A DNA stretch of 43,776 bases from a virus. Both the position numbers and the translations under genes were made by a program. The stretch covers positions 1 through 43,776 of the IMG/VR virus record IMGVR_UViG_3300009104_000037. The stretch is one strand, 5' to 3'. Below, one piece after another: positions 17,344 to 43,671 of the stretch. The notes beneath the pieces are model-generated. The model searched no databases, was not told where the DNA came from, and was given only the letters and a program-made list of their open reading frames with translations. How positions within the stretch are numbered: position 1 is the stretch's first letter; the number at the start of each line of letters is the position of its first letter.

Positions 17344-17357
<14 letters not shown>
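16920..17357 (+). CDS. gp16: Small terminase subunit gp16
   Basis: A 145-aa, mostly helical, charged protein in the canonical place before the large terminase. It carries the coiled region DYKYTRNTLYNLVERGQDAI (about residues 51-70) and EVAGQLIKTVADTSEKLLQI typical of gp16. The protein forms a ring that regulates the terminase motor and recognises DNA for packaging. It overlaps gene 17 by 14 nt, so the two subunits are probably made in a coupled way. A TATAAATA inside this gene (17070) is probably only coding sequence. Confidence 0.85.
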
Positions 17358-18957
<1,600 letters not shown>

Positions 18958-18963
18958 TATATT

Positions 18964-19569
18964 ATGGATAGAGTGCCGGGCAACGATAAAGAATGGGGAA
19001 ATATAACTCCTTTAGATGAGTTAGATGTAGACTGGGAAGCAGTTGAGAACTTTATTCTTAGTCCAGAAGGTAGAAAGATCATAGAAAGAGAACAATGGGT
19101 ATATAAGTATATCCAATATAATTGGGCAACCTTCCCAGAAAAGGCCTTTTATGACATATTTTACCAACTAAAAGAACAATTTTTTGATAAAAGAGAAGAG
19201 ATAGGAGTGGACACTAGTATCCCTCACATGATGCAAGGATGGGTAAATATCTTTGAACAGGGAGATAATATAGGGTGGCATTCTCATTGTGGAGATGTTT
19301 CACCTCATATGTTTCATGGAGTTATAGTAGTTAACCCTCAAGGTGACTCATATACTGAATATAGAGACAATAATGGAGATATTATCCATACAATACCCTC
19401 TAAAAAGGGTGAAGGTCACATTATAAGTGATATGTTAACTGAACATAGGTCATCTCCAAACGAATCAGAACATCCTCGTATCACTCTTGCTTTCGATATT
19501 TTAGGATTTGATAACTGGAATTGCAATTGGGATAATGATATTGGAAATCAATATGTTCCTTTCTGTTAA
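18964..19569 (+). CDS. 2OG-Fe(II) oxygenase-like protein downstream of terminase
   Basis: A 201-aa protein. QGWVNIFEQGDNIGWHSHCG supplies H106-x-H108; SDMLTEHRSSP supplies the distal H161; HPRITLAFDI supplies R172. The spacing and FHGVIVVN/PRITLAFDI strands fit the double-stranded beta-helix of small phage 2OG oxygenases. The second ligand is His or the nearby D111 rather than a clear HxD. It starts six bases after the terminase stop with no evident ribosome site; the A/T-rich GTAGTATATT before the ATG might instead be part of a promoter. Substrate unknown. Confidence 0.65.
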   Translation: MDRVPGNDKEWGNITPLDELDVDWEAVENFILSPEGRKIIEREQWVYKYIQYNWATFPEKAFYDIFYQLKEQFFDKREEIGVDTSIPHMMQGWVNIFEQGDNIGWHSHCGDVSPHMFHGVIVVNPQGDSYTEYRDNNGDIIHTIPSKKGEGHIISDMLTEHRSSPNESEHPRITLAFDILGFDNWNCNWDNDIGNQYVPFC

Positions 19570-28147: not shown

Positions 28148-28564
28148 ATGCCATATAGTAAAAAGGTAGTAGATAGATTCAATAATGTATTGAATGACCC
28201 ACAAAGTCATGCAGTTGGTAGGTTTGACCCTAATGACCCTATGGTTGCATCTGGTATGGTTGGTGCTCCAGCATGTGGGGATGTCATGAAATTAGACCTA
28301 AAATTAGATATTGATGGGTTAATAGAAGATGTCAAATTTAAAACATATGGGTGTGGTAGTGCAATTGCATCATCTAGTCTATTTGTGGATATGTTAAAGG
28401 GTAGAACCATATCTGAAGCAAAAAAGATAAAAGACAAAGATATTGCAGAAGTATTAGAATTACCACCAATTAAAATACATTGTAGTGTCCTTGCTGAAGA
28501 AGCAATATGCAAAGCAATAGAACATTGGGAAGAGAAGTCTGCTCATAGACAACATAATGGATAG
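28148..28564 (+). CDS. iscU: IscU-like iron-sulfur cluster scaffold
   Basis: A 138-aa protein closely resembling bacterial IscU. ASGMVGAPACGDVMKLDLKL carries Cys43 and Asp45; FKTYGCGSAIASSS carries Cys69; LPPIKIHCSVLAEEA carries the LPPIK motif (105-109), His111 and Cys112. These match the cluster-binding Cys37/Asp39/Cys63/His105/Cys106 and the HscA-binding LPPVK of E. coli IscU. IscU receives sulfur from IscS and passes [2Fe-2S] clusters to acceptors through HscA/HscB. The main difference is a short insertion near the N-terminus (NDPQSHAVG, around residues 16-24). All key residues are intact, so it is probably active. It stands in a capsid-region late unit with no other isc gene beside it. 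Confidence 0.95.
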   Translation: MPYSKKVVDRFNNVLNDPQSHAVGRFDPNDPMVASGMVGAPACGDVMKLDLKLDIDGLIEDVKFKTYGCGSAIASSSLFVDMLKGRTISEAKKIKDKDIAEVLELPPIKIHCSVLAEEAICKAIEHWEEKSAHRQHNG

Positions 28565-29776: not shown

Positions 29777-30451
29777 ATGCCATCTTTTCTAAGAGACCCT
29801 CTTATAGTTACACAAGGAATAAGTCCAGAACTTTCTCAAGAAATATTAAATATTGGAAGACATATGGATACCAGTTACGCTGCAATTGGTGGAAGTCATG
29901 GTGTAGAAGATTATTCAACTAGAAAGTCTGGAGTATCGTGGTTACCAAAGGATATGACTGTTGCAGATGGAAAGACTAGACTTAATGAGGATTTAATACA
30001 ACCAATGGTGTATGATATTAACGATAAACACTTTGGTTTTGATCTAACCTACCACGAAAACAACCAGTTTACTACTTACAAAGCACCAGATGAACACTAC
30101 CAATGGCATTGTGATGGTGGCCCAGACACCTATCAACTAGAAAACTCTAAAGAAGATACCGAATTAATAACCCAAGTAGATGAACAGGTTAATACTTATA
30201 GGAAACTTTCATACATAATACAACTTTCTCATCCAGATGATTATGATGGTGGTCGTTTAGAGTGGATAGACCCTTGCAATAATCATTCAGAGAAAGATTG
30301 GGGATTGTTCATAGAAACAGTGCCACAGTCTGGAAAAGAACAAGGAACTCTCATAGTTTTTTCATCCATTCTTTATCACAGAGTAACTCCAGTGACTAGA
30401 GGTATCAGACATTCATTAGTAGGTTGGATATGCGGCCCACGATTCAAATAG
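29777..30451 (+). CDS. PKHD-type 2OG-Fe(II) hydroxylase
   Basis: A 224-aa protein with a complete 2OG-Fe(II) centre: H111-C-D113 in YQWHCDGGPD, LSYIIQLSHPDDYDGGRLEW, distal H201 in VFSSILYHRVTPV and R211 in RGIRHSLVGWICGPRF. The order and the DYDGGRLE turn match PKHD-type hydroxylases (PiuC-like), common in cyanophages and proteobacteria. Three bases separate it from uvsY, and it overlaps the uvsW start, so it is made with recombination proteins from the early-type promoter at 29293. The substrate is unknown. Confidence 0.88.
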   Translation: MPSFLRDPLIVTQGISPELSQEILNIGRHMDTSYAAIGGSHGVEDYSTRKSGVSWLPKDMTVADGKTRLNEDLIQPMVYDINDKHFGFDLTYHENNQFTTYKAPDEHYQWHCDGGPDTYQLENSKEDTELITQVDEQVNTYRKLSYIIQLSHPDDYDGGRLEWIDPCNNHSEKDWGLFIETVPQSGKEQGTLIVFSSILYHRVTPVTRGIRHSLVGWICGPRFK

Positions 30452-32453: not shown

Positions 32454-33005
32454 ATGGTACAAAAAAAGAAACCAGAGCATTATGTAAACAATAAAGAGTT
32501 TACAGCAGCGATAACAGAACATAACATTGCAGTTAAACAAGCAATCAAAGATGGAGTGGAACCACCTAGAGTTTCAGAGTACATTGGAGAATGTATCTAC
32601 AAGATTGCAACAAGACTTTCAACTAAACCTAATTTCATTAACTATTCTTATAGAGATGAAATGATATGTGATGGAATTGAGAATTGTTTACAATATATAA
32701 ACAACTTTAATCCAGAAAAATCTAAGAATGCATTTGCCTACATAACCCAAATTATATACTATGCATTTTTAAGACGAATTCAAAAAGAGAAAAAGCAATC
32801 GGCCATAAAACAAAAGGCGATAATGAATTCTGGTATCCTAACTGATATGGTAGATACTATTGATGGGGATACTACTCAGTATAGTAATACATATGTTGAG
32901 TTTTTACAAGACAATATGAATGAAGTAAACTATAAACCCAGAGGAAAGAAGAAAACTGCACCAAAAAGCAAAGGTGTTGAAAACTTTTACCAGTCCACAA
33001 AGTAA
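32454..33005 (+). CDS. gp55: Late sigma factor gp55
   Basis: A 183-aa protein. KPEHYVNNKEFTAAITEHNI, then ISTR-like KIATRLSTKPNFINYSYRDE followed by MICDGIENCLQYINNFNP and NAFAYITQIIYYAFLRRIQK is the sigma-2-like core of gp55, which lets host RNA polymerase read TATAAATA promoters together with gp33 and the gp45 clamp. T4 gp55 has 185 aa. Many exact TATAAATA sites in this window are its expected targets. It is driven by a perfect host-type promoter and starts without a leader. It overlaps gene 47 by one base. Confidence 0.94.
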   Translation: MVQKKKPEHYVNNKEFTAAITEHNIAVKQAIKDGVEPPRVSEYIGECIYKIATRLSTKPNFINYSYRDEMICDGIENCLQYINNFNPEKSKNAFAYITQIIYYAFLRRIQKEKKQSAIKQKAIMNSGILTDMVDTIDGDTTQYSNTYVEFLQDNMNEVNYKPRGKKKTAPKSKGVENFYQSTK

Positions 33006-34066
33006 TGAAGATTGCTATCCTAAACGACACACATTGTGGTGTTCGTAACGATAATGTGCAATTCCACGAGTTGCAGAGGAAGTTCTATGAGGAACTTTTC
33101 TTTCCATATCTATTAGAACACAATATTAAACACATCCTTCATCTTGGAGATTATTTCGACAAGAGAACAGGTATTAACTTCTTATCACTTCAAAGAAACA
33201 AAGAACACTTTGTAGATCATCTTAGTGAGCATGATATAACTATGGATTTAGTATTAGGTAATCATGATCTATATTATAAGAATACATCCGAAGTAAATTC
33301 ACCAACTGCATTGTTAAACCATCCAAACATAAAAATCTTCGGCGATGTTGTCACCAAAGATTATGATGGATGTAAACTTTGTTTAGTGCCTTGGATTCAT
33401 AGAGGGAACATTGATGATACAGTAGAACATCTAGATACAACCAATGCATCAGTTGCTATGGGACATTTAGAAATCGAAGGTGCAATGATGATGCCCGGCT
33501 ATTATTCAACACATGGATTGAGTCTGGATACATTTAAAAGATTTGATAAAGTGTATAGTGGTCATTTCCACATTAAATCAGAAATGAATAACTTAATCTA
33601 TTTGGGTTCTCAAATGGAATTTACATGGTCTGATTATGGAGACCCAAAACACTTTCATATATTTGATACTGAAACACGAGAAATGAAACCAGTATTAAAT
33701 CCAATTAGAATGTTTGAAAAAGTATTCTATGATGATTCCAAAGAAACAATGGAATCTATACAAGCAAAAGATTTCTCATATTTAAAGGATATGTTTGTCA
33801 AGATAATTGTTATCAATAAAGATCAACCTTATTGGTTTGATATGTTTGTTGATAAAATTTCAAAGGCAGATGTAGTTGACTTTAAGGTAGTAGAAGATCA
33901 TGGAAATCTTGATATGATGGATGATGAAGATGCATTATCAGATGCAGAAGATACTTTGACTATATTAACTAAACACATAGAGGCTATGGAAATCTCTGGT
34001 GATAAAACAAAACTCGACAACCTAATGAGGTCTTTATATACTGAAGCATTAGATGTGAGTTTTTAA
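33005..34066 (+). CDS. gp47: Recombination nuclease subunit gp47 (SbcD/Mre11-like)
   Basis: A 353-aa metallophosphoesterase. LNDTHCGVR (D8, H10), LHLGDYFDKR (D49), VLGNHDLYY, MGHLEIEG and YSGHFHIK provide the five phosphoesterase motifs that bind two metal ions. With gp46 it resects DNA ends for recombination-dependent replication. The length matches T4 gp47 (339 aa). The C-terminal acidic part (DMMDDEDALSDAEDT) is ordinary for the family. Its start overlaps the gp55 stop (TAATG). Confidence 0.94.
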   Translation: MKIAILNDTHCGVRNDNVQFHELQRKFYEELFFPYLLEHNIKHILHLGDYFDKRTGINFLSLQRNKEHFVDHLSEHDITMDLVLGNHDLYYKNTSEVNSPTALLNHPNIKIFGDVVTKDYDGCKLCLVPWIHRGNIDDTVEHLDTTNASVAMGHLEIEGAMMMPGYYSTHGLSLDTFKRFDKVYSGHFHIKSEMNNLIYLGSQMEFTWSDYGDPKHFHIFDTETREMKPVLNPIRMFEKVFYDDSKETMESIQAKDFSYLKDMFVKIIVINKDQPYWFDMFVDKISKADVVDFKVVEDHGNLDMMDDEDALSDAEDTLTILTKHIEAMEISGDKTKLDNLMRSLYTEALDVSF

Positions 34067-34309
34067 ATGGAAAGATTAATGGTAAGTAATCAAAATGGAA
34101 TTATATACAGTGGACAGTATGTGATGGAAGGTCACTATGTTTCATTTCGTATATTAGATAATGAAGAAGTAGAGATAAGTGAAGTTATGGATTTACCCAG
34201 ATATCAGTCAAAAGGTAGAACCTTTTCAACTGAAAAAAAGGTAACTCTTGATGAAGCAATTGAAATACAAGATAGATATATTAGTTTAGGATATGATAAG
34301 ATTTCATAG
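34067..34309 (+). CDS. Small hypothetical between genes 47 and 46
   Basis: An 80-aa protein beginning immediately after the gene 47 stop; ATG 34079 is a possible shorter start. The sequence is strand-rich (GIIYSGQYVMEGHYVSFRIL) with a final helix (TLDEAIEIQDRYISLGYDKI). No motif is recognised. It overlaps gene 46 by 17 nt. A small gene at this place occurs in marine T4-like phages; function unknown. Confidence 0.65.
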   Translation: MERLMVSNQNGIIYSGQYVMEGHYVSFRILDNEEVEISEVMDLPRYQSKGRTFSTEKKVTLDEAIEIQDRYISLGYDKIS

Positions 34310-36002
34310 TGTAAAGTACAAAAACTTTTTATCCACAGGCAACCACTTTACAGAAATCTTCCTTGATAAAAGGAAGGCCTGTTTAGTTATAGGTGAAAAT
34401 GGTAGTGGTAAATCAACAATGTTAGATGCATTGTGCTTTGGTTTATTTGGTAAGGGGTTCAGAAAAGTACCTAAAACCATGTTAGTTAATTCTATCAATG
34501 GTAGACATATGGTAGTTGAGGTTGAATTCTCAGTGGGTCAGAAGAGATATAAGATAGTTCGTGGTGCAAAACCAAACATCTTTGAGGTATATTTACATAA
34601 CAAAATGTTAAATCAAGATGCAAATATGAGAGATTATCAAGATCATCTTGAAAAACAAATTCTAAAAATGAACTACAAGGCCTTTACACAGGTTGTTATT
34701 CTAGGTAGTTCAACATTCGTACCTTTTATGCAAATGAATACATCAGATAGAAGGGGTATTATAGAAGATATCCTTGATATTAACATATTTTCTATTATGA
34801 ATGATATCTTAAAAGTTAGAATGGGTGCATTAAAATCTGAATTACATGATCTAGAATATGACATCAGATTATCCGAAGATCGCATTGATACCTACAAGAA
34901 ACACATTAAAGCTTTGGGCGACGGTCGCCGAGACAAGATTCAAGACTTCCGATCAAGTATCGAAAATGCAGAGAAAAACAACAAGAAACTACAAGAAGAG
35001 TGTACTTTATTGCTTGAACAAGTAGATACTAAACAGGGTGAAATCGACCACATAGATGACATAAAACACAAACTACAACATACATTAGACATAGAGAAGA
35101 AGTTAGAAGATGCTAAAACAAGGGGAAATAAGGAAATAAACTTCTATGAGACCACTGATGAGTGTCCAACATGTCATCATAACCTAGAAGATACCTTCAA
35201 GTTAAAGAAAATAAACACAACTAAAGGAACTTTAGAGGAAATAACATCAGCATTATCTGACTTAGACGAACAGGTAAAAGAAATCAACAAGGAACTTGAG
35301 GAAATAAGAGAAGTTCAAGGTAAAATAGACGAACTTACACGAGATATCAATAAGAAACAGACAGAAATGAATGCATCTGCTCAATACATTACTAAGATAC
35401 AGAAAGAAATTGATAAGTTGATGGGAGAAAAATCATCAGATGACACCAAAAAGTTAGATAAAGAGATTAAAACCTTAAAGAAACATGAGAGTGGAAAAGA
35501 GAGTTTAGTTGATAAGAGACATTATTACGATCTTGCAGCCTTCTTATTGAAGGACTCTGGGATCAAAACCAAGATAGTTAAACAGTATTTACCAGTAATG
35601 AATAAACTGATTAACAAGTATCTTGCATCTATGGAGTTCTTTGTTCAATTTGAATTGGATGAAAACTTTAATGAGAACATAAAGTCTAGATATAGAGATG
35701 AATTCTCTTATGCAAACTTTAGTGAAGGAGAGAAAATGAGAATTGACCTTGCATTGTTGTTCACTTGGAGAGCAGTTGCAAAGTTAAAAAATAGTGTGAA
35801 TACAAACCTATTGATGTTAGATGAAGTCTTTGACAGTTCACTGGATGAGGGTGGTACTGACGAGTTCATGAAGATACTAACAACACTAGGAAACGATACC
35901 AATGTCTTTATTATTTCACACAAAGGGGATGTCTTAAATGATAAGTTTAGACATGTTATGAAATTTGAAAAGGTTAAAAACTTTAGTAGGGTAGCAGAAT
36001 GA
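34293..36002 (+). CDS. gp46: Recombination nuclease ATPase subunit gp46 (SbcC/Rad50-like)
   Basis: A 569-aa SMC-like ATPase. FHSVKYKNFLSTGNHFTEI is the typical start; Walker A GENGSGKS is at 34-41; long coiled coils flank a zinc hook CPTC (C291-C294); the ABC signature NFSEGEKMRIDLALL and Walker B LLMLDEVFDSSLD follow near the C-terminus. It works with gp47 as the phage Mre11-Rad50. The length is close to T4 gp46 (560 aa). Its stop overlaps the next ATG (ATGA). Confidence 0.95.
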   Translation: MIRFHSVKYKNFLSTGNHFTEIFLDKRKACLVIGENGSGKSTMLDALCFGLFGKGFRKVPKTMLVNSINGRHMVVEVEFSVGQKRYKIVRGAKPNIFEVYLHNKMLNQDANMRDYQDHLEKQILKMNYKAFTQVVILGSSTFVPFMQMNTSDRRGIIEDILDINIFSIMNDILKVRMGALKSELHDLEYDIRLSEDRIDTYKKHIKALGDGRRDKIQDFRSSIENAEKNNKKLQEECTLLLEQVDTKQGEIDHIDDIKHKLQHTLDIEKKLEDAKTRGNKEINFYETTDECPTCHHNLEDTFKLKKINTTKGTLEEITSALSDLDEQVKEINKELEEIREVQGKIDELTRDINKKQTEMNASAQYITKIQKEIDKLMGEKSSDDTKKLDKEIKTLKKHESGKESLVDKRHYYDLAAFLLKDSGIKTKIVKQYLPVMNKLINKYLASMEFFVQFELDENFNENIKSRYRDEFSYANFSEGEKMRIDLALLFTWRAVAKLKNSVNTNLLMLDEVFDSSLDEGGTDEFMKILTTLGNDTNVFIISHKGDVLNDKFRHVMKFEKVKNFSRVAE

Positions 36003-36940
36003 TAATACTAAACAGTCATTGTAGAACAGGATTGTATAAAGCATGGCAGATGATTATACACAACTTAATACAAAGGGAAGACAACTGGATTAAGTTTCAA
36101 GAAGATGCAAGTGGAGATACATCATTTGATACAAACCACTGGCAAAGATATCATGATCTAACATTTGAAAAGATAAGTGGTGTTATGACTGGAGAAAATT
36201 TTATGGATGTAGATGAGCCATTTAATACTTTCTTCCATAACATCACTAATCCCATTGAGCCATTTGTAGGAATTGCATTAGATGTACAGGGAATAAAACC
36301 AAATCCATTTCATGGCGATCCAGCAAAGATACTAAAAGAGTTAAATAATATCCCTAATGAATTACATGAACTGCCACCCTTTGGAGTGTTTGGTGCATTT
36401 AATGAATGGAATAACATTGACTGGAGAAGAATGAAAGAAAGAGGGTATAAGATTGTAAACTTACATAGAAGAGACATGAAGTCTTGGTTTATATCCACTA
36501 GTCTTTGTGTTGCATTAGGAATTAATGGTTGGCATTGTTGGACAGATGAACAAGCAAAAACACTCTATAATAGAAGAAAGAAACTTGTTGGAAAGTTAAA
36601 AGTAAACTCTACTCAGTTGAAGTTGTTCTTCATTTCAGTAGAAAGATATTTAGAATCAGTTCCAGCAGATGCATTTTGTATCTATGAAGCACTCTACTCT
36701 AATCCAGAAATCTTTATAAAGGAATGTGAACTTGATCCGAACCTACCTATGATAGAGAACTATATATCTAAGAGAGCAAAACATCCAGTAAAAGATTATG
36801 AGGATTACCTAGAAATTAGTTCTGATGAGTTTTCTGAAATGTGGGAAAAGACTATTCCTTTCTCTTTTAAAGAAAGATTTAAAATAGACATTCAAGAAAT
36901 GCCTGAGTTTGTAAACGAAGATGGAACCGAAAAGAATTGA
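35999..36940 (+). CDS. Possible sulfotransferase-like protein
   Basis: A 313-aa protein. It starts MIILNSHCRTGLYKAWQMII, which could be a degenerate phosphosulfate-binding loop after a first strand. In the middle YKIVNLHRRDMKSWFISTSL followed by GINGWHCWTD resembles the 3'-phosphate region (LRR(R/D)...S...) of marine sulfotransferase-like proteins. The usual P-x-S-G-T/S loop is not present, so the call is weak. It overlaps gp46 by four bases and the next 2OG oxygenase by 20, placing it in the same transcript. Other reading: an unrelated host-modifying enzyme. Confidence 0.4.
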   Translation: MIILNSHCRTGLYKAWQMIIHNLIQREDNWIKFQEDASGDTSFDTNHWQRYHDLTFEKISGVMTGENFMDVDEPFNTFFHNITNPIEPFVGIALDVQGIKPNPFHGDPAKILKELNNIPNELHELPPFGVFGAFNEWNNIDWRRMKERGYKIVNLHRRDMKSWFISTSLCVALGINGWHCWTDEQAKTLYNRRKKLVGKLKVNSTQLKLFFISVERYLESVPADAFCIYEALYSNPEIFIKECELDPNLPMIENYISKRAKHPVKDYEDYLEISSDEFSEMWEKTIPFSFKERFKIDIQEMPEFVNEDGTEKN

Positions 36941-37544
36941 TTTTTTAGACCCAGATGGTATTCTCTTATATGAGAATGTTGTTTCTAATAAAAAATTAGA
37001 TGATTGGTATTGGAGAATAAAAAGCTATGCACAGTTCAGACAACAATCAACTGCATCTAGAGGATCAAATGAAAAACAAGCATATGCTTGGCAGGCAAAC
37101 TTCAATTCTCCAGAGATTATTGAAAAGATTAATAATGATCCAGAGATAAATTCCAAAATATCTGATGTAGATAGACAACTACCAGAAGGGTTTGAACTTA
37201 TGGAAGAGATATGGGATCATATATCTTCAAAATGTAAATTGAATTATGAACCCATACAACAGTATATCAATGCATTTAATCATGGGGATAATACTTGGGG
37301 TCATACAGATTGGTATGATTACACAGTTATCTTATATCCAAATCCTAAATGGGACTCTCAAATATGGGGCGGTGAGACACTATTCTTCGATCCTAACTAT
37401 AAATTTATAAGAGCTGCAGTAGCATGTACGCCAGGCAATGTTGTAGTATTTAAAGGAGATATACCACATAAGGCAGGACAAGTATCAAGAGAAACAACAG
37501 AATCAAGATTGTCAGTAGTATATCAAGTTAAAGGTGAAGTATGA
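36921..37544 (+). CDS. 2OG-Fe(II) oxygenase
   Basis: A 207-aa protein with a complete set of ligands: H128-T-D130 in NTWGHTDWYDYTVILYPNP, the turn WGGETLFFD, distal H183 in VVVFKGDIPHKAG and R196 in ESRLSVVYQVKG. This is the minimal double-stranded beta-helix of phage 2OG oxygenases related to prolyl hydroxylases. ATG 36921 lies 20 nt inside the preceding gene; its stop overlaps the deformylase start (ATGA). Its position next to a deformylase and another oxygenase suggests a protein-modifying group, but the substrate is unknown. Confidence 0.85.
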   Translation: MEPKRIDFLDPDGILLYENVVSNKKLDDWYWRIKSYAQFRQQSTASRGSNEKQAYAWQANFNSPEIIEKINNDPEINSKISDVDRQLPEGFELMEEIWDHISSKCKLNYEPIQQYINAFNHGDNTWGHTDWYDYTVILYPNPKWDSQIWGGETLFFDPNYKFIRAAVACTPGNVVVFKGDIPHKAGQVSRETTESRLSVVYQVKGEV

Positions 37545-38161
37545 AATTAATAGCAAAAGATAACACAACTTTAAGATCAGTTGCAAAGATGTGGGATTAT
37601 GAAAACCCACCAGAAGATTTAATAGAACTTAGAGATAAGTTAATCAATACTATGATGGATGAAGGTGGTATTGGACTAGCAGCCCCACAAGTAGGCGTAC
37701 CTTATAGAGTATTTGTTATGAGAGGGGAAGGTGCAGAAGAAAGTATGTTAATGGTTAATCCAGAGATTGTAGACCACTCTGTTGAAACTGCAGCCATAGA
37801 AGAAGGATGTCTTACAGGTGGGTTAGAAGGAATATTTTGTATCCTAACCAGACCAGAGTCTATTCGTGCAAGATGGCAGAATGAAGATGGTGATGTTAGA
37901 GAATTAAGTTTTGGTGGTATGTCTGGAAGATGTTTCCAACATGAATTAGATCATTTAAATGGTGTCCTTTTTATAGATCATGCAAGTCAAATAAAATTAG
38001 AGAGAGCAGTTAAGAAAAAGAATAAAAGGAAAAAGAAATATGACAGATTCGTCAAACAGCTTAAAGAGTATACCGCAACCAGAGGTGCATTACCTACACC
38101 AAGTGTTGACTCCGAAGGAGTGCAACCTACTGATAAAGTATCACAAAGCGAATCAGAATAA
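37541..38161 (+). CDS. def: Peptide deformylase with overprinted C-terminal extension
   Basis: A 206-aa metalloenzyme that removes the formyl group from new proteins. All three motifs are present: GIGLAAPQVG (43-52), EEGCL (87-91, Cys90, with T instead of the usual S next) and QHELDHLNG (133-141, with His134, Glu135 and His138). Deformylase genes are common in marine phages. The catalytic domain ends near residue 165. The last 40 residues, basic and then Ser/Pro-rich, are encoded where the next gene begins in another frame (122-nt overlap), so this tail probably arose by overprinting or by loss of an earlier stop. Confidence 0.95.
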   Translation: MKLIAKDNTTLRSVAKMWDYENPPEDLIELRDKLINTMMDEGGIGLAAPQVGVPYRVFVMRGEGAEESMLMVNPEIVDHSVETAAIEEGCLTGGLEGIFCILTRPESIRARWQNEDGDVRELSFGGMSGRCFQHELDHLNGVLFIDHASQIKLERAVKKKNKRKKKYDRFVKQLKEYTATRGALPTPSVDSEGVQPTDKVSQSESE

Positions 38162-38741
38162 AATTACATATGACGATCCTGCCGATCAGTATAATGGTAG
38201 GCGTATACCATTAGCAAGTATAAATAATTTAAACATCAAAAGGATTATTGCAAAATATCAATATGATGTCATTTCTGAAATCTGGTCTTTATATAAAGAA
38301 AAATGTTATCCAGAACAAACAGAAATAATGAGATGGCCAATAGGTGTCCCACAGGAGATACATATTGATGTCATGGGAAGTGAAGAAGACAATGCAATTA
38401 TCCCATTTACAGATTTTGCATCTATTCTTTACTTAAATGATAACTTTGAAGATGGCACAACTTACTTTGAAGGTGGTATGGAAATCCAGCCAGTTCAAGG
38501 TATGGTTGCCATTTTTGAAGGAATGAAATACTGGCATGGGGTAAAGGCATGTAAAGGGAATGACCGATACACTTTACCCATTTGGTTCACAACAGAATGG
38601 AAGAACATGGAACTTCAATCACATGGTGGTGAAGAAAGAGAAGGATTAAATGCTGGAACCTTGCCAAACATGGGAAGTGAAGAAGACAACTATACAGCAC
38701 TTCGTGACTGGTGGAGAAATAGATACTGGCCCGACTTGTAG
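38040..38741 (+). CDS. 2OG-Fe(II) oxygenase (prolyl 4-hydroxylase-like)
   Basis: A 233-aa protein. VHYLHQVLTPKECNLLIKYH (16-35) is the typical P4H-type lead-in, and the iron site is H108-I-D110 in PQEIHIDVMG with distal H166 in KYWHGVKAC; R176 (NDRYTLPIWF) would bind 2-oxoglutarate. FASILYLNDNFEDGTTYFEG matches the central strands. ATG 38040 is supported because the overlapped N-terminus looks like genuine P4H sequence. It overlaps the deformylase by 122 nt. Its target is unknown. Confidence 0.88.
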   Translation: MTDSSNSLKSIPQPEVHYLHQVLTPKECNLLIKYHKANQNKITYDDPADQYNGRRIPLASINNLNIKRIIAKYQYDVISEIWSLYKEKCYPEQTEIMRWPIGVPQEIHIDVMGSEEDNAIIPFTDFASILYLNDNFEDGTTYFEGGMEIQPVQGMVAIFEGMKYWHGVKACKGNDRYTLPIWFTTEWKNMELQSHGGEEREGLNAGTLPNMGSEEDNYTALRDWWRNRYWPDL

Positions 38742-38749
38742 GAGATAAT

Positions 38750-38968
38750 ATGAAAGACGAACAAACTAATTGTTATGAAGAATTATTCGAAAAGGTTTTA
38801 GAACTTCAAGGGAAGTATCCTTCCCTAATGATAGCAGGAAATATGGCAGTACAAGCTTTAAGGATTTATAGAAGTGTTCTTAATGATGAAGAATTTAAAA
38901 GTATGATGGTTGCTATTGTTAAAAGTGAAGACCAAATCAAACCTTTTGATAGACCAACATTACAATAG
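38750..38968 (+). CDS. Conserved hypothetical, helical
   Basis: A 72-aa protein with a clear GGAG ribosome site six bases before ATG 38750. It is all helix by composition: ELFEKVLELQGKYPSLMIAG, NMAVQALRIYRSVLNDEEFK. Short proteins of this type recur in marine T4-like phages near accessory genes; no function is known. Eight bases separate it from the small membrane ORF at 38977. Confidence 0.65.
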   Translation: MKDEQTNCYEELFEKVLELQGKYPSLMIAGNMAVQALRIYRSVLNDEEFKSMMVAIVKSEDQIKPFDRPTLQ

Positions 38969-38976
38969 GAGAAAAA

Positions 38977-39096
38977 ATGGATATATGGTTAATTTTAGAA
39001 TTACCTTTTTTAATATTTAAGTGGTCTCTAATCATTGGATTTTGGTATATGATTATATACCTTGCTTATGATTGGATTAAAAACTTCTGGAATTGA
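38977..39096 (+). CDS. 39-aa single-pass membrane peptide
   Basis: ATG 38977, six bases after AGGAG, opens 39 codons: MDIWLILELPFLIFKWSLII followed by GFWYMIIYLAYDWIKNFWN. The whole peptide is hydrophobic with many aromatics, enough for one or two short membrane passes. It ends one base before the Coq4-like start, so the two are likely co-translated. Its function is unknown; it could anchor or regulate its membrane-linked neighbour. Confidence 0.6.
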   Translation: MDIWLILELPFLIFKWSLIIGFWYMIIYLAYDWIKNFWN

Positions 39097-39097
39097 A

Positions 39098-39784
39098 ATG
39101 GCTAAGAAAAAGATAAGATTACTTAAAGGTATTAAAGCTTTTCAAAGTGTATTAAAATCTAAGAGTAATACTCAAGGATTTGCAGATATCAATTCTGCAC
39201 TTAATGGAGATTCAGTTGATCCCATCATCAATGAATGGGGAAAAACATCTATGGCAAAAAAATATCTCAATGGTGAAAGATTACCATTAAATGATACATT
39301 TTCTAAGAATTCTGTTGGAGATGTAAGACAAAAATTTCTAGGAAAATATGCCAAGTCGAGTGATCTTAGAGATTTAAACAGAGCAGCACCTAAGAATTTA
39401 CAGATTGCATTCTTTCATTGGGTTATAGATTGTCATGATATATCACATATAATAACAGATTATGGTCAAGATACTACTGGTGAAATACTCAGAATTGAGT
39501 ATGAAATATTCCAATCTTATATGAGAGGGTACTGGTTTATCTCATTAGGTTTTCAAATAAGAACACTCTTTCTCAGTCCAATCAAATTCTTTAAATTCAG
39601 AAAAATGGTAAAAGAGGCCAGAAACAGGGCCTCAGAGGCCACCAATCTTCATCTAATTGATTGGTTTGAATATCTGGATGAACCCTATACCTTTGTAAAA
39701 GAACGCATTGTAGGGGTAAAACCTACCACATTATATCAGAATAAAGACCCATATTGGTATAATTGGTCTGAAAAACACTTCTAA
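39098..39784 (+). CDS. Coq4-family ubiquinone biosynthesis-like protein
   Basis: A 228-aa protein. It contains the defining Coq4 metal motif H-D-x2-H-x11-E exactly: H113-D114-I-S-H117, eleven residues, then E129 (WVIDCHDISHIITDYGQDTT then GE). The following helix (IFQSYMRGYWFISLGFQIRT) corresponds to the hydrophobic, isoprenoid-contacting part of Coq4. In eukaryotes Coq4 is needed for a late coenzyme Q ring step and binds metal and polyprenyl tails; a Nostoc homologue is also known. ATG 39098 is chosen because it is one base after the upstream stop and the earlier 39062 start lies inside the membrane peptide gene. The basic N-terminus (AKKKIRLLKGIK) has no signal peptide. Confidence 0.8.
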   Translation: MAKKKIRLLKGIKAFQSVLKSKSNTQGFADINSALNGDSVDPIINEWGKTSMAKKYLNGERLPLNDTFSKNSVGDVRQKFLGKYAKSSDLRDLNRAAPKNLQIAFFHWVIDCHDISHIITDYGQDTTGEILRIEYEIFQSYMRGYWFISLGFQIRTLFLSPIKFFKFRKMVKEARNRASEATNLHLIDWFEYLDEPYTFVKERIVGVKPTTLYQNKDPYWYNWSEKHF

Positions 39785-39840: not shown

Positions 39841-42234
39841 ATGAGAGAAATTACTACAACAAGAACTTCTAAAGACTCCCTTGCAAGACTTCTTGCACAG
39901 GAAGATTTAGTCATTGAGCATAGGAAAGTTCCTACTGCATACTTTGAACTAAAAAAACGAAAACTCGTTTGTCCAATCCTTAAAGATGATATGTCTGCTG
40001 ACCTTTATGATTTATTCATGGGTCACGAAGTAGGACATGCATTGAATACGCCAGAAGATGGATGGCATACTGCGGTATGTGAAAAAGGAATGAAATATAA
40101 AGGATATCTCAATGTCCTAGAAGATATAAGAATTGAGAAAGCAATCAAAAACAAGTATGCTGGTTTGAGAAGGTCTTTTTATGATGCATACAAAGAATTA
40201 TACAATGATATAGACTTCTTTGGAGTTAAAACCAAAGATGTAAATAAACTTGCATTTATTGATAGGATCAATCTTTACTTTAAAGTTGGTCATACCATGA
40301 TGGTTGATTTTTCTAAAGAAGAGTTAAAAATCATTGAAGCCTTACACAGAATGGATACTTGGGAAAAAGTTGTCAAAATGGCAGATTACCTTTATGAGTT
40401 ATCCAAGTTTGAAGAAGTTGAACCTCAAGAAGACCCAAATCAAAAAATGGTTCCTCAGATTAATGATGAGGATGGTATGGAAATGCCTGAAGGTGATGAA
40501 GAGTATTCTGTTCCTCAATCGTCTGGTGATGAAAAAGAAGAGAATGAAACTACTGGAACTGGTGAAGAAAAATCTGATGAAGATGGTGAAGAAGGTTCTG
40601 GTGAAGAAGGTGAAGAAGGTGATGATGACTCTGAATCAAATTCTGGTGAAAAAGGTGAAGAAGGTAAAGAAAAAGAACAAGAATCTTCTAAAGAATTTGG
40701 TGATGGTGCTGGTAGTGAAGAAGACAATGCAAATGAGTCAATAACTGACAAAGCATCAAGAGAAAAAGAAAAAGATTTTCTTCATGATGATCTTGATAAC
40801 AAATGGGGTGGAGATAATTCTTATCTTGACTTAAACACCAAACAAATTAAATGGGAAGATCACAAAGTTGGTTACAAAACTATTCTTGAAGAAATGAAAG
40901 AAGGTTGGGCAAAACAAGAAGAAAATGGTTACAAAAAACAAGAATGGAACAATGATACAGACTCTTGGGAGTATATAGACTTTGGTGACACTGATGATGC
41001 CGAGAGATACACAAACGAATTTATAGATCACAATCAAAAAATTGTGAATTACATGGCAAAAGAATTTGACATGAGAAAAGCTGCATCAAACTACAAGAAG
41101 GCAATGACTGCCAAGTCTGGTGAGATTGATATGCAGAAGATTTATCAATACTTGATTAAAGATGATATCTTTAAGAAGGTTACTGTTGTTCCAGATGGTA
41201 AAAATCATGGTATGATCTTACTATTAGACTGGTCTGGATCAATGCATGATTGCATTAAAGAGACTTTTGAACAGTGTGCAATTCTAGTGATGTTTTGCAG
41301 AAGAGTTGGAATTCCTCACAGAGTTTATGCATTTTCAGATGCATATGGAAAATCTGATGTTTCTGAGGAAGACAGAAAAGAGTATTATGAAATCCAAAAA
41401 GGTAAAACAGAAAGAAATGAAGTTACCATTGGAAGAACTGCAATGTTGGAACTCTTTTCAGACAAAATGAATAACAAAGATTTCAAAGAAATGTTGACAA
41501 CTATGATGATCCAAGTTGACTCAATGACATATTATAATCACAACCAAGAGGCTCCATTTAGAAATCCTTATAACCAAGTTTACAGATTTAACTTAGGTGG
41601 TACTCCACTGGATGAAAGTTTACTAATCATAAGAGATTACATACAAGAATTTAAAAATAACTACAACATAGACAAACTTCAATTTGTTACTTTGACTGAT
41701 GGTGACTCCTTCCATGCTCGTGGATTGACTTACAACAATGGTAGAGAATATTTCTTCCACGATAAAAAAGTTAAAAAGACTTATGAGTACAACACTGAAA
41801 GATACTACAGTAGATATTCTGAGAAAGCAAAAGGTGGTTCTACTGATTGTCTCTTGAAGTGGATAGAAGATACTACTGGAGTTGATACTGTTGGGTTCTT
41901 TATTTGCAAACAATCTTATAGAGAGTTTGACAAGTATTCAGAGAAGTTTTCAAAATTAGATATAGATTACAGTGACCAGTGGGACAAAAACAAAGAAGAT
42001 TTTAAACTCTTTAGAAAAGAAGGTGGTATCAAACTTGAATGTGGTGAAGCTTCTGGATACAAAGAGTTCTACATGTTAAACAAGAAAAAGATGTCAATTG
42101 TAGTTGAAGATGACACTTTGAATGTAGAAGAAGGTGCATCAAAACAAAAATTGAAAGGTGCAATGATGAGAATGGGAAAAAACAAAATGTCCCAGAGAAA
42201 AATACTTCAACACTTCATTAAGAAGGTTGCATAA
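39841..42234 (+). CDS. HEXXH metallopeptidase-VWA fusion protein (CobT-like)
   Basis: A 797-aa protein. Near the N-terminus FMGHEVGHALNTPEDGWH carries the zinc motif H62-E-V-G-H66, followed by LNVLEDIRIEKAI, which may supply a third ligand. Residues about 190-300 are a Glu/Asp/Lys/Ser-rich linker. The C-terminal half is a von Willebrand A domain with MIDAS D463-W-S465-G-S467 and a later TLTDGDS. It has the CobT-like order (linker then VWA) seen beside AAA+ genes. It probably works with the CobS/MoxR-like ATPase at 42499; the pair would remodel or cleave a protein target. Direct cobalamin synthesis is less likely since no CobN is present. Confidence 0.8.
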   Translation: MREITTTRTSKDSLARLLAQEDLVIEHRKVPTAYFELKKRKLVCPILKDDMSADLYDLFMGHEVGHALNTPEDGWHTAVCEKGMKYKGYLNVLEDIRIEKAIKNKYAGLRRSFYDAYKELYNDIDFFGVKTKDVNKLAFIDRINLYFKVGHTMMVDFSKEELKIIEALHRMDTWEKVVKMADYLYELSKFEEVEPQEDPNQKMVPQINDEDGMEMPEGDEEYSVPQSSGDEKEENETTGTGEEKSDEDGEEGSGEEGEEGDDDSESNSGEKGEEGKEKEQESSKEFGDGAGSEEDNANESITDKASREKEKDFLHDDLDNKWGGDNSYLDLNTKQIKWEDHKVGYKTILEEMKEGWAKQEENGYKKQEWNNDTDSWEYIDFGDTDDAERYTNEFIDHNQKIVNYMAKEFDMRKAASNYKKAMTAKSGEIDMQKIYQYLIKDDIFKKVTVVPDGKNHGMILLLDWSGSMHDCIKETFEQCAILVMFCRRVGIPHRVYAFSDAYGKSDVSEEDRKEYYEIQKGKTERNEVTIGRTAMLELFSDKMNNKDFKEMLTTMMIQVDSMTYYNHNQEAPFRNPYNQVYRFNLGGTPLDESLLIIRDYIQEFKNNYNIDKLQFVTLTDGDSFHARGLTYNNGREYFFHDKKVKKTYEYNTERYYSRYSEKAKGGSTDCLLKWIEDTTGVDTVGFFICKQSYREFDKYSEKFSKLDIDYSDQWDKNKEDFKLFRKEGGIKLECGEASGYKEFYMLNKKKMSIVVEDDTLNVEEGASKQKLKGAMMRMGKNKMSQRKILQHFIKKVA

Positions 42235-42457: not shown

Positions 42458-42502
42458 ATGAATGAGAAAACAACAAATTTAATATTAGGAGAGAATGCAT
42501 GA
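42458..42502 (+). CDS. 14-codon leaderless upstream ORF coupled to cobS-like gene
   Basis: The predicted transcript starts exactly at ATG 42458, which opens MNEKTTNLILGENA and stops at TGA 42500-42502, overlapping the next ATG (42499) as ATGA. The AGGAGAG ribosome site of the cobS-like gene lies inside this frame. It may be a leader peptide that couples or gates translation. Whether it is translated is inference. Confidence 0.5.
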   Translation: MNEKTTNLILGENA

Positions 42503-43671
42503 ATTTAAATGCTAATCATTACAGGTTTCTAGATGCGTGTGCAGAACAGATGCCTGGCACAATTGAGTTCTCTAAATCGACAGTAAGGAAAATCTGTGAT
42601 ACAGCAGAAATACCTTTTCCTTCTTGGTTGATTAGAAAACCTCAATTCAAAGCTGGATATGGTACTTACTCGATTGAGTCCCTAGTTCCAGAAAATTATG
42701 GTGCTGTTGCGGTTGAACCAGAGGCAGTTCCGAATGTTCAAGTGGTTCCAATTCCAACATCTGATGTTGGGATCAATGTTCTAGATGAGAACTTTGAAGT
42801 TATTCCAACTAAGATTGATAACTATGTTCCTTTTGGACATTTCAAAGACTTAGAAAAAATTATAAAATCTGGGATTTTCTTTCCAGTGTTTATAACTGGT
42901 CTTTCTGGAAATGGAAAAACTTTGATGGTTGAGCAATTATGTGCAAAACTTAAAAAAGAATTATTTAGAGTAAACATCACGATTGAGACTGATGAAGATG
43001 ATTTGATTGGTTCCAACACTTTGGTGAATGGAAACATCATGTTTAGGGAAGGCCCTGTCCTCAAAGCAATGAGGAAAGGTGCTGTTCTTCTTCTTGATGA
43101 AGTTGACCTTGCATCAAATAAAGTGATGTGTCTTCAATCAATCCTTGAAGGTGGTGGTTACTTAATCAAAAAAACTGGTGAGTTTGTTAAACCAGCAGAT
43201 GGTTTCACAATCTGTGCTACTGCAAACACTAAAGGTAAAGGTTCTGAGGATGGAAGGTTCATAGGAACTAACATTCTTAATGAAGCATTCCTTGAAAGGT
43301 TTGCAATCACTTTGGAACAAAGTTACCCACCAGTGAAAACTGAACAAAAAATCATCAAAAAGGATTTTGAATTGGTTGGTGTCAATGATGATGAGTTTGC
43401 AGAAAACTTAGTCAACTGGGCTGATGTAATCAGAAAATCCTTCTACGAAGGTGCAGTTGATGAAGTGATTTCAACTAGAAGGTTGGTTCACATTGCAAAG
43501 GCATTCTCAATGTTCAATGACAAAATCAAAAGTATTGAAGTTTGTCTTGCAAGATTTGATGATGACACCAAAGCAAGTTTCCTTGATCTCTACACCAAAG
43601 TTGATGCTGGGGTCTTAGGAACAGAAGAGGAACAAAAAGATGGTGAGGAAAACTCAGACATCCCAATCTAA
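42499..43671 (+). CDS. cobS: CobS/MoxR-like AAA+ ATPase
   Basis: A 390-aa ATPase. The N-terminal 110 residues are a variable domain with a winged-helix-like start. Then come Walker A GLSGNGKT (134-141), IETDEDDLIGSNTLVNGNIM, Walker B VLLLDEVD (196-203), a sensor CATANTKGKG, and LERFAITLEQSYPPVKTEQ. This is the CobS/MoxR branch of AAA+ proteins, widely annotated as cobS in marine T4-like phages. MoxR-type ATPases act with VWA partners, and such a partner is encoded just upstream. Its ribosome site AGGAGAG lies seven bases before the ATG, inside the 14-codon upstream frame. Confidence 0.9.
   Translation: MNLNANHYRFLDACAEQMPGTIEFSKSTVRKICDTAEIPFPSWLIRKPQFKAGYGTYSIESLVPENYGAVAVEPEAVPNVQVVPIPTSDVGINVLDENFEVIPTKIDNYVPFGHFKDLEKIIKSGIFFPVFITGLSGNGKTLMVEQLCAKLKKELFRVNITIETDEDDLIGSNTLVNGNIMFREGPVLKAMRKGAVLLLDEVDLASNKVMCLQSILEGGGYLIKKTGEFVKPADGFTICATANTKGKGSEDGRFIGTNILNEAFLERFAITLEQSYPPVKTEQKIIKKDFELVGVNDDEFAENLVNWADVIRKSFYEGAVDEVISTRRLVHIAKAFSMFNDKIKSIEVCLARFDDDTKASFLDLYTKVDAGVLGTEEEQKDGEENSDIPI

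Follow-up and report, generated by a model that had tools for sequence, protein, structure and literature searches.

The locus examined here poses the question of why a virus would carry a Coq4-family gene. The best-studied proteins of that family take part in making coenzyme Q, the respiratory electron carrier. A preliminary description of this DNA, a viral stretch of 43,776 nucleotides (hereafter the window), had proposed a Coq4-family gene in a T4-like phage and had called it an unusual one. Two matters have to be settled in turn, whether the gene is truly a Coq4 gene of a phage, and what its product might do for the virus.

The coq4 gene and its place in a T4-like genome

The open reading frame lies on the plus strand with its ATG at 39098 and its stop at 39784, just as first described, and encodes a protein of 228 residues, P0001. 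In hmmscan P0001 matched the Pfam Coq4 family (PF05019) with 25.4 bits and E = 1e-5, above the curated gathering score of 22.9, with residues 67-203 aligned to positions 80-214 of the 221 in the profile; a genome-level profile search gave 24.8 bits for the same pair. No other Pfam family was returned for P0001 by hmmscan, and neither NCBIfam nor PHROGs gave a match. The family assignment, for which the preliminary description had proposed a search against this profile, therefore stands. The exact H-D-x2-H-x11-E motif that it had pointed out is also there, as H113, D114, H117 and E129, in agreement with the Coq4 pattern HD-x2-H-x10-13-E. The motif occurs once across the six frames of the window and in 0 of 100 shuffles, and this absence from the shuffles, together with the Pfam match, rules out a chance motif or a wrong frame. 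Compared with its orthologue in a related contig (L001), the gene has a dN/dS of 0.18 at a dS of 0.97, indicative of purifying selection.

The features on which the argument draws are as follows.

17344..18957, plus strand: terminase large subunit, a phage hallmark
26432..27742, plus strand: T4-type major head protein, nearest isolate Melnitz (67% identity)
33005-34066: gp47 (phrog_100), adjoining gp46
34293..36002, plus strand: gp46 (SbcC-like), left boundary of the cargo island, in the position and order of syn9 gp46, beside gp47
35999..39784, plus strand: cargo island between gp46 and a CobT-like gene, collinear in L001 and G014/L025
38750..38968, plus strand: 72-aa protein of the coq4 gene cluster (78% identity in L001)
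38977..39096, plus strand: 39-aa single-pass membrane peptide, with homologues in L001 and L025
39098..39784, plus strand: Coq4-family protein P0001, 228 aa (PF05019 above gathering score; fold match to 3MSQ and 6E12; dN/dS 0.18 against the L001 orthologue)
39434..39484, plus strand: codons of the metal motif H113-D114-x2-H117-x11-E129, read from the sequence, with residues invariant in 90 cellular homologues
39841..42234, plus strand: phrog_459 'peptidase' (CobT-like), right boundary of the island (E = 4e-178)
42499..43671, plus strand: phrog_249 CobS-like AAA ATPase (E = 9e-120)

The T4-like identity of the phage, also part of the initial claim, is borne out by the T4-type terminase, tail sheath, portal and major head protein found in the window, the head protein being closest in the isolate collection to those of Methylophilales phage Melnitz (67%) and Pelagibacter phage HTVC008M (65%). 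Counted from the gp46 side, the island encodes, in order, a 313-aa protein, a 2OG oxygenase, a peptide deformylase, a second 2OG oxygenase, the 72-aa protein (for which Pfam and PHROGs gave no confident family), the membrane peptide and Coq4; in cyanophage syn9 a single small ORF separates gp46 from the peptidase gene that comes next. The island is mostly collinear in L001, whose coq4 is 73% identical to that of the window, and in the 129.6-kb contig G014/L025, whose coq4 is 38% identical and in which a Gcw_chp-type protein occupies the place of the 72-aa gene.

IMG/VR contigs may include host flanks, and one could accordingly suppose that coq4 came from the host through mis-binning of the contig, or that it is a chance motif or a gene in decay. 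We consider this extremely improbable, given that T4-like genes are collinear on both sides in the window, L001 and G014, which rules out mis-binned host DNA, that another phage group has coq4 immediately between its terminase and tail sheath genes, and that Pfam and fold matches go together with purifying selection. The gene thus sits inside the bona fide genome of a T4-like marine phage, and P0001 is a real, selected, phage-borne Coq4-family protein.

Other genes of the window may be recorded here. The peptide deformylase of the island (37541-38161) belongs to phrog_2890. There are four 2OG-Fe(II) oxygenase-like genes (18964-19569, 29777-30451, 36921-37544 and 38040-38741), for two of which the best PHROGs are named 'DNA endonuclease', apparently a naming error in that resource. 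A NifU-like Fe-S scaffold gene lies at 28148-28564.

Predicted fold, metal site and membrane peptide

AlphaFold2 gave a pLDDT of only 37 for P0001 with a two-sequence alignment; we instead used an alignment of 39 family members, which yielded a model with a pLDDT of 90.9 and a pTM of 0.87. The model is all-helical, and in a Foldseek search of the PDB three chains fell below E = 0.001, namely the Coq4-like structure 3MSQ and both chains of another, 6E12 (E = 1.7e-5 to 5e-5, TM 0.62-0.71), the next match having E = 1.4. A profile search of PDB sequences returned 3MSQ and 6E12 again, with E = 1e-18 and 2e-16, and given that the model was built from the family alignment, its fold match is not fully independent of the sequence match. 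Comparison with the predicted viral structures in BFVD gave no match. The preliminary description had suggested comparison with the Nostoc Coq4-like structure, and the model does superpose on both 3MSQ and 6E12; in the model the metal residues occupy adjacent helices, with H113, D114 and H117 on predicted helix 101-120 and E129 on helix 126-140.

The four metal residues do not vary among the 90 cellular homologues, the majority of which were recovered by profile and not through the motif, or among the 36 aligned viral homologues besides the window, most of which were recovered through it; the motif is also kept by two viral proteins that the full motif pattern had not picked (L208 and a second copy in G014). 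An arginine five residues before the motif histidine, which is not a formal Coq4-family criterion, is present in 93% of the cellular homologues and is W108 in the window, and the position is W or F in the 13 other members of the window's clade examined. This loss may mean a changed substrate in that clade.

The 39-aa membrane peptide that had been noted directly before coq4 is real and conserved. Its gene has a strong Shine-Dalgarno sequence of its own, AGGAGAAAAA, and its stop codon ends one nucleotide ahead of the coq4 ATG. Homologues lie just upstream of coq4 in L001 (5864-5989; z = 15.9 against shuffles) and, in more divergent form, in L025 (2727-2870; z = 8.8 against shuffles). The ribosome-binding site, the 1-nt gap and the conserved position make co-translation likely, so the peptide is probably a co-translated membrane partner of Coq4 in the window's phage group. 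No equivalent was recognised in L026 or L208.

Coq4 in other viruses and in cells

A degenerate DNA pattern for the metal motif matched 102 IMG/VR stretches, which carry open frames that are Coq4-like over their length and fall into 38 clusters at 80% identity; these include a few non-viral or repeated loci, leaving about 35 viral ones. PF05019 was matched by all 36 aligned viral members, none of which matched a PHROG, and the record-level Pfam cut-off was passed by 25 of the 25 records tested. A tblastn search of 50,697 GenBank phage records with six representatives found no match, a profile scan built from no more than the two closest sequences gave no new matches, and the literature that we searched yielded no report of Coq4 in viruses. 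The word 'unusual' in the preliminary description thus calls for amendment: the family recurs in about 100 viral contigs, but is in none of the reference phage collections searched.

Beyond its own sub-clade, P0001 is 15-30% identical to the aligned homologues, and the trees place the window in a virus-only clade with strong support. A quick tree suggested several separate viral acquisitions; a tree constrained to unite the two main viral groups was not rejected (p-AU 0.82). Phage Coq4 is a true, new branch of a known family.

The gene is retained at differing cargo sites across several phages. In a T4-like group that includes L008 and L015 it lies directly between terminase and tail sheath, a slot taken in the window by a 2OG oxygenase (18964-19569). 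Elsewhere it adjoins a radical SAM protein and a 2OG-like protein (L051 group), a family-2 glycosyltransferase (L103 group) or tail-fibre-like genes (L012), or lies near ribonucleotide reductase genes (L022 group). In G014 a further Coq4-family gene, divergent and encoding 359 aa, keeps the motif (L231:2141-3217; G014:102141-103217).

The strongest functional clue is a coq4 gene near an alternative oxidase (AOX), a ubiquinol-oxidising enzyme. In G015 (L026), a T4-like phage with a head protein 72% identical to that of the window, coq4 lies outside the gp46-CobT island, in a cluster that runs cytochrome c, alternative oxidase, a 113-aa protein, coq4 and, later, NifU. The cytochrome c (PF00034) and oxidase genes (L026:493-930 and 933-1496; G015:66353-67356) are on the same strand as coq4, which follows about 0.8 kb downstream, and the oxidase matches PF01786 with E = 1e-65 and has the LET, NERMHL and RADEEHH motifs. 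A phage respiratory module is thus a possible reading of this cluster. The pairing is lineage-specific and no general rule, given that 4 of the 37 Coq4-bearing records encode AOX, each from the L026 lineage, as does 1 of the 50,697 phage records; in two relatives (L208 and L215) a glutaredoxin stands in the AOX position. UbiA and COQ7 reached the cut-off in none of 15 Coq4 virus records. The NifU-like gene lies 1.3 kb past coq4 in G015 and elsewhere in the genome in G014.

Turning to cells, G002 is a Sphingomonas and so belongs to the Alphaproteobacteria, a class in which 27 of 289 genomes carry Coq4; the count for its phylum, Pseudomonadota, is 33 of 399. G001 is a deltaproteobacterial MAG labelled Myxococcota by the tree tool, and in its phylum Coq4 is present in 42 of 141 genomes, with up to ten paralogues in one of them. 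Such patchiness and copy number suggest that the bacterial family does not simply serve CoQ synthesis. Myxococcota generally respire with menaquinone, and many bacterial Coq4 members therefore probably have a role other than ubiquinone synthesis. A role for bacterial Coq4 as a replacement for UbiD was rejected, there being no complementarity in Alphaproteobacteria (UbiD in 8 of 27 genomes with Coq4 against 4 of 18 without). Sphingomonad homologues share their operons with catabolic genes, among them those for acyl-CoA dehydrogenases. Short Coq4-like proteins with HD-x2-H-x11-E were also seen in Alphaproteobacteria, mostly sphingomonads (L109-L114, L116 and L118), as weak matches to a purpose-built Coq4 profile.

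Candidate functions and known counterparts

Ancestral animal COQ4 is a Zn-dependent C1 decarboxylase of CoQ precursors, and its mutants at the same four motif positions are inactive (PMC7615680); human COQ4 has been described as an oxidative decarboxylase too (PMC11495197). By homology, one would expect the phage protein to act at the membrane as a metal-dependent decarboxylase. A quinone-pool function is plausible, at about one half, and CoQ-precursor decarboxylation is our best single guess for what the protein does. Spelled out, phage Coq4 would be a divalent-metal enzyme, probably with Zn, on the inner side of the host membrane, and the co-translated 39-aa peptide would either recruit it to that site or stabilise it. 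The enzyme would strip the ring carboxyl from a quinone precursor that is aromatic and prenylated, in the manner of animal COQ4, which acts at C1, so that ubiquinone synthesis and respiration would be kept up in infection as host proteins disappear; where coq4 is paired with a phage ubiquinol (alternative) oxidase and cytochrome c, the whole ubiquinol pool may be the target. We give this proposal as a whole a probability of roughly 0.48. The counter-signs to a simple CoQ role are the lost arginine, the patchy and duplicated bacterial distribution, and the count of 0 in 15 for UbiA and COQ7; the UbiD comparison and the confinement of the AOX pairing to one phage lineage also weigh against it.

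In a different proposal, fold and metal chemistry are the same and a Coq4-like decarboxylase or lyase acts on another lipid- or isoprenoid-linked carboxylate, for instance in envelope lipid or glycan modification. Arginine loss in the window's clade, the big cellular paralogue families with up to ten members per genome, the catabolic operons of sphingomonads, and the glycosyltransferase, radical SAM/SPASM, 2OG oxygenase and tail-fibre-like neighbours of other phage coq4 genes all speak for it. Phage cargo neighbours often share no function, however, all four catalytic metal positions are retained, and the closest electron-transport context in a phage is a ubiquinol oxidase with cytochrome c; we hold another substrate to be an appreciable possibility that falls short of probable. 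A non-catalytic protein is also conceivable, one that binds lipid or quinone as a scaffold or inhibitor and, together with the membrane peptide, reorganises or obstructs the quinone-synthesis complex of the host or the host membrane. In yeast, Coq4 is regarded as an organiser of the CoQ synthome (PMC11495197), a Nostoc structure was solved with bound oleic acid (PMC9774615), and the membrane peptide is conserved and coupled to coq4. Strict conservation of the metal ligands across viral clades argues instead for catalysis, and we regard the scaffold as unlikely.

A broader claim can be framed: a widespread, uncatalogued phage Coq4 family, in some lineages within a cytochrome c/ubiquinol-oxidase module, by which T4-like phages of heterotrophs would make quinone and re-route host electrons during infection. 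This remains rather doubtful. Marine heterotroph phages carry metabolic genes, and control of the host respiratory chain by them is poorly documented; viruses may here be adjusting host respiration with a gene not catalogued before. A family that recurs outside PHROGs, the 50,697 GenBank phages and BFVD, and in one case has a ubiquinol oxidase as its neighbour, suggests a phage strategy on respiration that can be put to the test. Human COQ4 is mutated in disease, and the divergent bacterial and viral homologues are of use for an enzyme with a debated reaction, simple as against oxidative decarboxylation.

Among known systems, eukaryotic COQ4/Coq4 (PF05019) resembles P0001 in the profile match, the HD-x2-H-x11-E motif, a similar length and, presumably, metal chemistry. 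P0001 differs in being phage-borne and divergent, in having no mitochondrial targeting, in having Trp for Arg before the motif and in standing without CoQ complex partners alongside. Nostoc Alr8543 (6E12) and Npun02000094 (3MSQ), its sole fold matches, have the same metal residues, but are cellular and 14-16% identical to P0001. Phage C48C1 (OQ984149) is T4-like, as is L026, and has an AOX 58.5% identical to that of L026 (OQ984149.1:26279-26830; L233:8025-8576), annotated as hypothetical; no Coq4 match was found in it. Viral auxiliary metabolic genes of the quinone pathway reported before include ubiG in Baltic viruses (PMC9301287), and COQ2 and menA in IMG/VR (PMC12724203); these and phage Coq4 would all be aimed at respiratory quinones, with different enzymes. 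If the broader claim framed above is true, the phage Coq4 module would be the respiratory counterpart of the photosynthesis genes of cyanophages.
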